From the NCBI GenBank assembly GCA_017630455.1, contig JAGBVG010000008.1, forward strand, positions 1-63,889: a stretch of DNA of 63,889 nt. Direction: 5' to 3'. Positions 4,319 through 33,686 of the stretch are shown here, one piece after another; the stretch's first letter is position 1; the number at the start of each line of letters is the position of its first letter. Under the pieces are notes generated by a model. The model did no database searches and was not told the DNA's origin. It saw nothing but the letters and a program-made list of their open reading frames with translations. The DNA comes from Alistipes sp. GTDB lineage: Bacteria > Bacteroidota > Bacteroidia > Bacteroidales > Rikenellaceae. The position numbers and the translations under genes were made by a program.

Positions 4319-4347
4319 GTTGTCAACGTTATCAGTACACCATCTAT

Positions 4348-4378
4348 GTCATCCCTCGACAGGTTCGGGATGACATAG
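4348..4378. repeat. Short hairpin repeat, TGTCATCCC family
   Basis: TGTCATCCCTCGA and TTCGGGATGACA form an imperfect inverted repeat. The same outer arms recur at 21593 and 21729. Confidence 0.65.
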
Positions 4379-4389
4379 GGGAAAGAGAC

Positions 4390-4455
4390 AATTTCTTGTC
4401 AGAAGGGTGCCGAGTGCAACACTCGGCAAAAATCCCGACGATGGGACAACGCCCA
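4390..4455. repeat. Truncated copy of the 130-bp hairpin element (A1)
   Basis: It starts with AATTTCTTGTCAGAAGGG, the same end as the full copy at 4456, but lacks the opposite arm. It contains a small perfect hairpin (GCCGAGT-GCAAC-ACTCGGC) and the CAAC-CTCGGC motif seen in the copies at 10610 and 24340. Best read as the remnant of a second tandem unit. Confidence 0.6.
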
Positions 4456-4583
4456 AATTTCTTGTCAGAAGGGGTTAGGCTTGGTCTATCGCAAAAGAAG
4501 ATCCCCTCGGGATAGTACACGAAGTACAGCCCGAGGGGTCTTACTTTTGGGATGGGCCGAGAATGACCCCTTATCACAAGAAA

Positions 4584-4586
<3 letters not shown>
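4456..4586 (-). repeat. Full 130-bp hairpin element at the gap stop codon (A2)
   Basis: The 131-bp unit folds on itself from end to end. The ends AATTTCTTGTCAGAAGGGGT (left) and ACCCCTTATCACAAGAAATT (right) pair, then AAAAG/CTTTT, GATCCCCTCGGG/CCCGAGGGGTC, and GTAC-ACGAA-GTAC at the apex. On the minus strand it begins with TAA, the stop codon of gap (4584-4586). Together with the terminator, the TGTCAT hairpin and fragment A1 it fills the 325-bp gap between POT and gap; no gene is seen there. Confidence 0.85.
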
Positions 4587-10507: not shown

Positions 10508-10613
10508 AATTTTTGATTAGAAGGTAGCAGATTTGATCTATCACAAAAGAAGACCCGATGGGTTATCTTTTGGGGATGTGCCGCAGATTGCGGCTTTTCA
10601 CATCAAAGAAATT
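10508..10613 (-). repeat. Hairpin element, shorter unit (B1)
   Basis: AATTTTTGATTAGAAGGTAG at the left shares its end with unit B2. The right end (CATCAAAGAAATT) pairs with it, with AAAAGAAGACCC/GGGTTATCTTTT inside. It is about 106 bp and lacks the GTAC apex; a secondary GCCGCAGATTGCGGC hairpin sits in the right arm. It is tandem with B2, sharing AATT at the junction. Confidence 0.65.
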
Positions 10614-21541: not shown

Positions 21542-21591
21542 CGATTAGTCGGTTTCGTAACGTTCACAAGATTGTCATCCGAACGGATATT

Positions 21592-21623
21592 TATGTCATT
21601 CCTCGGCAGGCTCGGGATGACAT
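21592..21623. repeat. Short hairpin repeat, TGTCATTCC family
   Basis: TATGTCATTCCTCGG and CTCGGGATGACATA are imperfect inverted arms around CAGG. Near-identical to the copy at 4348. Confidence 0.65.
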
Positions 21624-21670
21624 AAATGCGAGCATTTATGCATCATTTTCACTTCCACATTCCCCCTAAA

Positions 21671-21691: not shown

Positions 21692-21727
21692 CTTGGTGCG
21701 TAGTCAGTGTTATCTGTATACTATATA

Positions 21728-21833
21728 TGTCATCCCGAGCCTGTCGAGGGATCTCCTCACTATGTGTTCGTTGTCTGCGGGTTGCACAGCGAGGAGATCC
21801 TTCGACTTCGCTATGCTTCGCTCAGGATGACAT
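21728..21833. repeat. Extended TGTCATCCCGAG...AGGATGACA repeat
   Basis: The outer arms ATGTCATCC/AGGATGACAT enclose GAGGGATCTCCTC and GAGGAGATCCTTC, which also pair, with a loop of about 40 bp. CGACTTCGCTATGCTTCGCTC near the right end is typical of dispersed TGTCATCCTGAGCG-type repeats. It is the longest copy of the family in the window. Confidence 0.65.
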
Positions 21834-21862
21834 TTATCATATTTTTGCTTCGTCAGCGTGTT

Positions 21863-21950
21863 AATTTTTGATTTTAGAGGCGCATATTTGTTCTATCGTA
21901 AATGAAGATCCCCTCGGGATAGTACACGAAGTACAGTCCATAGTAAAGTA
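21863..21950 (-). repeat. Partial hairpin element (C1)
   Basis: It begins AATTTTTGATTTTAGAGG and carries the same GAAGATCCCCTCGGGATAGTACACGAAGTACAG block as copy A2 (given here across its known parts: arm GATCCCCTCGGG, apex GTAC-ACGAA-GTAC). The right arm is lost after the apex. It is tandem with unit C2. The 602-bp gap 21481-22082 is fully accounted for by the terminator, three short repeats, C1 and C2. Confidence 0.6.
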
Positions 21951-24209: not shown

Positions 24210-24338
24210 AATTTGTTGTTAGAAGGGGTTAGATTTGGTGCCAAATCGAAATTGGCGCGGATGGGGGTGTACTGAGCGTACATCCCCATTCGAGACAATG
24301 AGTTTGGCGCCGAAGATGACTCCTTATCACAATAAATT
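24210..24338 (-). repeat. 130-bp hairpin element, outer tandem unit (D1)
   Basis: Left end AATTTGTTGTTAGAAGGGGT pairs with ACTCCTTATCACAATAAATT at the right. TTTGGTGCCAAAT/GGCGCC arms and ATGGGGGTGTAC-TGAGC-GTACATCCCCAT apex follow. It sits between the start of the M13 gene and unit D2, in the same orientation as D2. Confidence 0.8.
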
Positions 24339-24339
24339 C

Positions 24340-24469
24340 AATTTGTTGTTAGAAGGGGTTAGATACAACGCTCGGCGAATTTCGAAGCGATGGGCTGTAC
24401 TTTGACGTACCGCCCATTGCTGAGATAATTCGTTAGCGGAAGTAGATGACCCCTTATAACGACAAATTA
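24340..24469 (-). repeat. 130-bp hairpin element at the pgk stop codon (D2)
   Basis: Read on the minus strand it begins TAATTTGTCGTTATAAGGGG, TAA being the stop codon of pgk (24467-24469). The arms carry CCGCTAACGAATTATCTCAG and CGCTTCGAAATTCGCCGAGC, and the apex is GGTAC-GTCAAA-GTAC. It is nearly identical, in gene orientation, to the copy after nadK at 33684. D1 and D2 fill most of the 365-bp gap 24102-24466; nothing else is seen there. Confidence 0.85.
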
Positions 24470-32816: not shown

Positions 32817-33686
32817 ATGAACATTATACTTTTTTCGCGCAAGCAGGTAAACCACAACCCCGAGCAACTGAGAACTCTCTTTGCGACAATGCAGCGTCTT
32901 GGTCTCAACTACACTATAAATGAGGACTTTGCGGCTGTTGCAGAGAATCTTCTCGACATTACGATACCTCGCGACAGAAGATACGACAGGTGCGCCCAAG
33001 CCACCGACTCGGATGTTATGATTCCATATGGCGGCGATGGAACACTCCTCGAGGCGGTACAGCTTCTACCAAATAGCGAAATACCTGTGGTGGGCATCAA
33101 CTGCGGCCGCCTGGGCTACCTCACCGCAGACAACGGAGAGGGAATCGAGGAGCTGCTGGAGCGCATAGCAAAGGGAAATATATCATACCAGCAACGCGAT
33201 ATGCTCTGCGTCACGGGAGACTTTGACTATGGCGAGAAATGTATAGCCCTCAACGAGGTGGCTGTACATCGCCACGGCGCAACGATGATATCCATTGAGA
33301 CCTTCGTTGACGACAACCGCATAGCCACATACCACGGCGACGGACTCGTAATCTCCACACCCACAGGCTCTACGGCATACTCCCTCTCGGCTGGAGGACC
33401 CGTGGTCGACCCGATGTGTAACTGCTTTATCCTCTCGCCTATTGCGCCCCACAACCTGACGATGCGCCCTGTTGTCGTACCCAACAACATCGCCATAACC
33501 CTGCGTCTGCACTCGCGTGGCGGCGAGGCATTTCTCTCAGCCGACAACCACACCTACAGCCTCAAAGATGGTGCTACAATACACCTCAAACGCGCCGAGG
33601 AGCAACTAATTTTGGCAACTCCGCATAATAATACGTTCTACGACACGTTAAGAGAGAAGATGATGTGGGGCGTGGACAATCGCTAA
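32817..33686 (+). CDS. nadK: NAD kinase
   Basis: It phosphorylates NAD to NADP. The family signature GGDGTLLEA is near residue 73, with NEVAVHR and TGSTAYSLSAGGP completing the NAD site. At 289 residues it is typical. Its TAA stop codon is the first triplet of a 129-bp hairpin element (33684-33812). Confidence 0.97.
   Translation: MNIILFSRKQVNHNPEQLRTLFATMQRLGLNYTINEDFAAVAENLLDITIPRDRRYDRCAQATDSDVMIPYGGDGTLLEAVQLLPNSEIPVVGINCGRLGYLTADNGEGIEELLERIAKGNISYQQRDMLCVTGDFDYGEKCIALNEVAVHRHGATMISIETFVDDNRIATYHGDGLVISTPTGSTAYSLSAGGPVVDPMCNCFILSPIAPHNLTMRPVVVPNNIAITLRLHSRGGEAFLSADNHTYSLKDGATIHLKRAEEQLILATPHNNTFYDTLREKMMWGVDNR

Follow-up and report, generated by a model that had tools for sequence, protein, structure and literature searches.

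The window, by which we mean the whole 63,889-nucleotide stretch of Alistipes sp. DNA that was analysed, carries the genes gap, tnaA, pepO, pgk, and nadK, whose products were identified with NCBIfam and Pfam as GAPDH, tryptophanase, a PepO/M13 peptidase, phosphoglycerate kinase, and NAD kinase, upholding the names assigned in an earlier sequence-only reading. At the stop codon of each gene lies a hairpin element of 128 to 130 bp, and all five loci are as that reading described them (Table 1). The repeat unit runs from AATTT to AAATT (from AATTTTT to AAAAAAT in the pepO copy), and it opens with the AA of the host stop codon, a single pair of bases shared by element and gene. The element had been described as beginning with TAA; of these letters, the AA does lie in the element, while the T belongs to the gene. 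On the minus strand at gap, the sequence from the stop codon onward reads AATTTCTTGTGATAAGGGG...CCCCTTCTGACAAGAAATT, and the 3′ architecture at tnaA, pepO, pgk, and nadK is the same.

Beyond these five elements, tandem copies were found behind tnaA and pgk, as was a right-half remnant behind gap, none of them named in the sequence-only reading. The gap layout is repeated at C10:111628, where a right-half copy again stands behind a full element (by eye). Twenty-four copies that were modelled measure 126 to 132 bp, end in AATTT/AAATT, and show at least three interior types, for which we coined the labels A, B, and C. Their arms vary from copy to copy, yet match each other within one copy. The window also holds an intergenic inverted repeat, ATGTCATCCC(T/G)...GGGATGACAT, at positions 4342-4377, 21589-21624, and 21723-21770.

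Table 1. Element copies and remnants in the window, and the insertion point at nadK
Feature	Position	Strand	Score or basis
Element 1, interior type A, at gap stop codon (TAA 4586-4584)	4456..4585	-	covariance model, 139 bits
Right half of a further copy, behind element 1 at gap	4390..4455	-	by eye
Element 2, at tnaA stop codon	10610..10738	-	108.4 bits
Shorter tandem second copy behind element 2 (tnaA), AATT common to both	10508..10613	-	51 bits
Element 3, at pepO stop codon	21956..22083	-	69.1 bits
Right-half remnant of another copy, behind element 3 (pepO)	21861..21939	-	92% identity over 52 bases
Element 4, interior type B, at pgk stop codon, in the pgk-pepO spacer	24340..24468	-	101.6 bits
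Copy in tandem with element 4, interior type C, on its pepO side	24210..24338	-	93.5 bits
Element 5, interior type B, at nadK stop codon	33685..33812	+	98.4 bits
nadK stop codon, the insertion point	33684..33686	+	empty sites of relatives

Most copies lie at stop codons in a single orientation

A covariance model built from the 24 copies was searched against the source genome (2.0 Mb), which contains at least 72 distinct copies. These come from 119 rows (the best 150 of 477 candidates scored), from which opposite-strand duplicates of one palindrome and weak or partial matches were removed by hand. Fifty-six of the 72 lie in sense orientation at a stop codon, defined as the end of an open reading frame (ORF) of at least 40 amino acids between -6 and +12 nt from the element start; one of the 56 depends on a doubtful 56-amino-acid ORF. 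Another 10 occupy downstream positions in tandem arrays, and 6 have other contexts. Three of these six lie 32 to 44 nt past a stop codon, inside a different hairpin repeat (by eye). One (C10:83542) stands behind a left half-element, which in turn is stop anchored, one (C54:20487) adjoins the start codon rather than the stop codon of a gene that we take to be rfbA by its sequence, and one (C53:738) fits none of these contexts. No copy of the 72 falls inside a called ORF of at least 80 amino acids.

The pattern extends to other genomes. Scanning genome contigs with a pattern that omits the T of the stop codon returned at least 118 stretches of public metagenome-assembled genome (MAG) contigs, some of them from genomes also counted under G handles below; every one of 80 titles among them names an Alistipes sp. 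or Rikenellaceae MAG. From the nhmmer set, 189 full copies were kept out of 214. Among the stretches listed, 111 of the 189 lie at a same-strand stop codon, and 85 share a single exact offset and orientation, for which the chance at a random noncoding position is 0.285%; 52 follow another copy, 8 lie at the end of a stretch, and 18 are placed otherwise. Of the last group, 14 were re-examined (L185, L162, L128, and L119 being left out): 7 proved to be stop anchored at ORFs overlooked by the screen, 3 have a duplicated arm beside the stop codon, 2 lie within the other hairpin repeat, 1 directly follows the CCA of a tRNA-Gln, and 1 is at a start codon. The two start-codon loci, C54:20487 and L201, may represent a single event. 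Most copies thus lie at the stop codons of protein genes (in one case, at the 3′ end of a tRNA) and share a single orientation relative to the gene, and copies are arranged in head-to-tail arrays. A count showing no enrichment at stop codons, or mixed orientations, had been named beforehand as what would speak against anchoring; anchoring survived it, both genome-wide and across the lineage.

Several further arrangements were recorded. Four elements stand head to tail in one tandem array at L225:6292-6804, and a diverged copy at L070:1501-1631 (G004) starts right after a T run resembling the end of a terminator, CCCTCTTTTTTT. A second hairpin family, marked by words like AAAAGTGTATTTTGTCGTT or GCGTTACGCTCGCCCTCAAAATGCTCATTTACG, partly starts beside stop codons (L206:6095-6226, L134:3843-3971, L282, C15:3766, C53:52777, and C62:1214), and it encloses five copies of the present element (by eye).

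Elements fold more stably antisense to their host genes

Six folds (four elements, part of that at pepO, and one opposite strand) gave z-scores of -7.05 to -12.0 against shuffled sequences. Each of the 24 modelled copies is more stable as its antisense strand, and the consensus energy is -40.8 kcal/mol for that strand versus -18.6 kcal/mol for the sense strand. Among 300 unique copies, 290 are antisense stable (G·U pairs, 1369 versus 243), and among 171 representatives the number is 161, or 164 under DNA parameters; the orientation of each copy was taken from the sense HMM, independently of stability. At columns 28-108 and 31-105, only U·G, C-G, and U-A occur, changes that preserve pairing in the antisense strand. 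Comparison of 30 ortholog pairs, which are mutually nonindependent, shows 64 base pairs in which both partners changed and pairing persists and 8 that are broken; where one partner of a Watson-Crick pair changed, the result was antisense G·U in 31 cases and A·C in 12. Relative to the host gene, it is therefore the antisense strand that folds better, and its pairs are kept by compensating changes, a feature absent from the sequence-only reading.

The whole element is a quasi-palindrome with terminal inverted repeats, as the outermost two bases both pair in 215 of 301 copies. AA opens 221 of the 301, and 196 of those 221 end in TT. When a copy starts otherwise, both bases pair in just 19 of 80 cases (AG/CT, CA/TG, and GA/TC, for example). 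With copies behind another copy set aside, pairing is seen in 12 of 39 non-AA copies, in a register picked for best arm match; shuffling gives 2.8 on average and never as many as 12 in 2000 trials. Gene-specific end pairing is thus real, yet confined to a minority.

Insertion sites keep to one chromosome strand

Counting the 53 sites of the source genome that lie on contigs with at least two sites, we found 50 on the majority strand of their contig and 3 on the other, versus 58:63 for nonhost genes in the same stretches. Two relatives behave alike: among the matches listed (the best 150 of 237 rows, on six and five large contigs), sites agree per contig at 47:6 in G064 and 42:6 in G065, versus 85:109 and 114:105 for sampled genes. 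Simulations that allow for the choice of a majority per contig gave P < 5e-6 in each of the three genomes. On smaller G065 contigs with at least two listed rows, 11 of 13 sites agree (by eye, without skew), and a count by eye in G017 gave 36 of 42 (P 0.0016). Sites thus keep to one chromosome strand per contig and neighbouring genes do not, which the sequence-only reading had not reported.

It is well established that the G-rich strand is the leading strand. In sampled DNA, the sign of GC skew matches the sites in 39 of 53 cases for G064 and in 42 of 48 for G065, among the matches listed; one of the six G064 contigs, C9, has near-zero skew and disagrees with the strand of its sites. The strand rule probably mirrors replication, with the sense strand being the G-rich, leading strand. 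A single-stranded antisense intermediate would predict hosts on one replication strand. Many hosts look like housekeeping genes, a status checked by tool for five and judged by eye for the rest, so part of the rule could stem from a general strand bias among well-expressed genes.

Relatives carry empty sites

Relatives with empty sites, which the sequence-only reading had proposed to look for, were found at two loci. At nadK, seven of eight relatives are without the element, the eighth, G021, carrying it as judged by alignment. The spacer behind the element in the source genome is 160 nt, versus 165 nt for the whole spacer of the empty relative G035; of 166 aligned columns, the two share 105, where a pair of empty relatives shares 97 of 171, and the former alignment is poor over its first 60 columns. 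That spacers of 160 and 165 nt can be aligned end to end argues for additive insertion. Between pgk and pepO, the element is absent from six of seven relatives. The pgk stop codon is TAG in all six empty genomes and TAA in both filled ones (the source genome and G076), only about 30 to 50 nt precede pepO at five of the six empty sites, and the postelement spacer of G076 (L276) matches that of the source genome in its last stretch. The relatives compared at nadK and pgk share about 70 to 87% alignment identity and are not strain-level pairs, so junctions are placed only to within a few bases; at this level of likeness, inspection by eye of nadK, pgk, and tandem joints revealed no target-site duplication. 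When both flanks were used to search for near-identical empty sites, eight cases emerged, mostly self-matches or composite repeats.

TAA is the stop codon of 111 of 116 element-bearing genes versus 274 of 501 element-free genes. Since TAA is already common in element-free orthologs of TAA-anchored genes (20 of 23), genes ending in TAA seem to be preferred as hosts, with pgk as a counterexample.

In close relatives, gap is followed by differing elements, and elsewhere by ordinary terminators or other long hairpins starting at the stop codon (by eye, 25 of 30 loci readable). Hairpins of the last kind, without the present element, occur at L254 (G027), L255 (G034), L256 (G020), L257 (G024), and L258 (G082); that of G027 is more stable antisense (-64.5 versus -49.9) and that of G082 more stable sense (-56.5 versus -49.1).

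At tRNA-Gln, an element lies flush behind the encoded CCA in L117:4097-4170 and in G075 (L284), and most readable relatives have a terminator-like hairpin in its place (by eye). We considered whether an added CCA might prove an RNA intermediate and rejected this, as CCA is encoded in all 14 readable genomes, element-bearing G075 included; the other 16 of 30 loci had no match to the motif used.

The family is restricted to one lineage

Among 61 genomes (the source genome and relatives), 22 match the element, all within the 37 genomes of the same genus, and none of the 24 genomes of other families does. A survey of the family found matches in 38 of 150 genomes, confined to 3 of 22 genera. Plasmid and phage collections gave no match at the sensitivity used. 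A viral or plasmid carrier was set aside: one viral contig matched a pattern, likely by chance and without the right arm (by eye), and a second pattern found none among viral contigs.

Comparison with known structured RNAs was likewise negative. With Rfam 15, a search of the whole window at E values up to 1 placed tRNA alone above its gathering score; two subgathering matches overlapping element 2 (Thr_leader, E 0.31; mir-26, E 0.11) were taken as chance, and a search of seven loci returned tRNA only. Box C/D kink-turns and integron attC sites were dropped after comparison by eye; the hosts are dispersed chromosomal genes.

A model for insertion and its alternatives

On balance, we lean toward regarding these copies as a lineage-specific, mobile, palindromic noncoding family of about 130 bp that inserts strand specifically at gene 3′ ends, probably coupled to replication, and that may serve as a 3′-end module. 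Insertion would take place at the replication fork via a folded single-stranded intermediate (DNA, cDNA, or RNA) of antisense sequence, which could meet the lagging-strand template where the 3′ end of a gene lies. Recombination may swap cores between copies, and the inserted copy would then act, or be tolerated, as the 3′ end of its host gene. We infer the fork-coupled intermediate, the recognition of RNA 3′ ends, and the 3′-end function; as to how stop codons are recognised, our preferred guess is via the 3′ ends of mRNA and tRNA.

A less probable but serious alternative is that the elements are host 3′-end modules, long hairpin terminators or mRNA protectors spread by recombination, whose placement and orientation result from selection and not from targeting. 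Canonical terminators are indeed scarce behind arrays when the neighbouring gene is convergent (3 of 33 element-bearing versus 47 of 156 element-free genes, P 0.015, spacers of at least 40 nt); with a same-strand neighbour, the difference is not significant (3 of 47 versus 17 of 133, P 0.29). Of 171 elements scored, a T-tract terminator was predicted in the sense direction for 18, in the antisense direction for 10, and in shuffled sequence for 8, which rules out canonical intrinsic terminators (GC stem plus T tract) for most copies. The earlier suggestion of a terminator thus draws some weak support from the convergent neighbours and none of significance from the same-strand neighbours, and the elements' own T tracts seldom fit it. 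With terminators scarce only at convergent neighbours and elements seldom terminator-like, a 3′-end role may exist, as these counts faintly suggest. The module explanation gains from the compensatory changes that preserve structure in orthologous copies, from the housekeeping look of many hosts, and from one ortholog pair (L161 and L171, 95% alike) in which the core of the first element differs and the arms agree. It sits poorly with the retention of pairing on the antisense strand instead of the mRNA and with the small number of copies off gene ends, where young insertions not yet subject to selection would be expected, and it leaves the chromosome-strand rule unexplained.

More doubtful is a transposition aimed at RNA 3′ ends via cDNA, with annealing to the lagging strand and sealing by ligase. 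Here the antisense element would be joined to antisense gene sequence at the end of an RNA, which would be the stop codon for an mRNA and CCA for a tRNA; the cDNA would anneal at the fork to the template of the lagging strand, and ligase would seal the flush hairpin with no endonuclease, duplication, or deletion. Such a route would jointly account for the boundary at stop codon or CCA, the orientation, and the fold of the antisense strand, and likewise for the pairing of the AA end with the stop codon, additive insertion, and the strand rule. It is made less probable by the low share of non-AA copies with gene-specific end pairing reported above.

An ordinary MITE- or RPE-like element that inserts at random and survives where harmless would also be palindromic, about 130 bp long, and multicopy, with empty sites present, and we hold it to be improbable. 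It is contradicted already by the position counts, since it would place 0.285% of copies at one offset and orientation, where 85 of 189 are seen among the stretches listed; intergenic copies distant from stop codons are few, and the chromosome-strand rule also stands against it.

A REP/BIME-type repeat moved by a RAYT transposase, a possibility raised in the sequence-only reading, is very improbable. Multicopy palindromes close to stop codons would suit it, and RAYT (Y1 HUH) enzymes recognise strand-specific single-stranded hairpins. However, Y1_Tnp (PF01797, RAYT) was found at E values up to 1e-5 in none of 21 genomes, 11 of them carriers, versus 5 of 14 control genomes, and the element measures 130 bp, against 20 to 40 bp for REPs (PMC3733652). 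An RVT_1 reverse transcriptase of the genomes' own was also rejected as the mover, being evenly present in carriers (5 of 11) and noncarriers (5 of 10) among these incomplete MAGs, some of which may have lost a reverse transcriptase or contain one that escaped recognition. Finally, an assembly or contamination artefact of a single MAG can be dismissed: the source MAG is fragmented (93 contigs, 7% contamination), but the same family is carried by relatives that are assembled in about 10 to 20 contigs and are 97 to 98% complete.

Implications and comparison with known repeats

Small bacterial repeats are usually held to scatter between genes. Copies positioned at stop codons with a tolerance of one or two bases, sharing an orientation and mostly a chromosome strand, imply a link between translation or RNA 3′ ends, replication, and insertion. 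The targeted insertion that we favour could offer a natural route to setting a cassette flush behind genes and be an origin of new gene 3′ ends. The many species, with many empty and filled sites, form a clean comparative system for asking how nonautonomous palindromic repeats move, RPEs and the like included.

In the open-licence literature, we did not find stop-anchored hairpin repeats of one orientation described, nor such insertion precision for other small bacterial repeats. Yeast mitochondrial GC clusters and fungal double-hairpin elements are mobile GC-rich hairpins with the strict target TAG; they differ in being organelle elements shorter than the present one, and we know of no stop-codon rule for them. 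REP/BIME repeats, which are moved by a Y1 transposase, are extragenic palindromes like the present element. In Escherichia coli, a stop codon is reported no more than 15 nt away from 446 of 4,072 predicted REPs, which at such positions can stall ribosomes (PMC12306157). REPs are mostly not flush with the stop codon, unlike the present element.

The Correia/NEMIS MITEs of Neisseria have a terminal TA motif and target. They are described as hairpin repeats whose RNA is involved in regulating adjacent genes, with no stop-codon rule in the account of PMC2229807. The same source presents YPAL/RU-2 and ERIC/RU-1 of enterobacteria as intergenic repeats of about 127 to 168 bp and reports, for YPAL, empty and filled sites and coexpression with upstream genes (PMC2229807). 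YPAL as presented there has target duplications of 3 to 26 bp beside its dyad symmetry, whereas none was noticed for the present element.

The palindromic elements of Rickettsia (RPE) have counterparts in Wolbachia. They are described as palindromes of about 105 to 150 bp with a long stem-loop, in several families, with mobility inferred (PMC2229807; PMC10969869). The present element resembles RPEs, as those accounts portray them, in being a palindrome of 100 to 150 bp with many copies and a stable stem-loop. It differs in that RPEs lie in frame within ORFs and in intergenic DNA and the present copies at stop codons, with a single orientation and a chromosome-strand rule.
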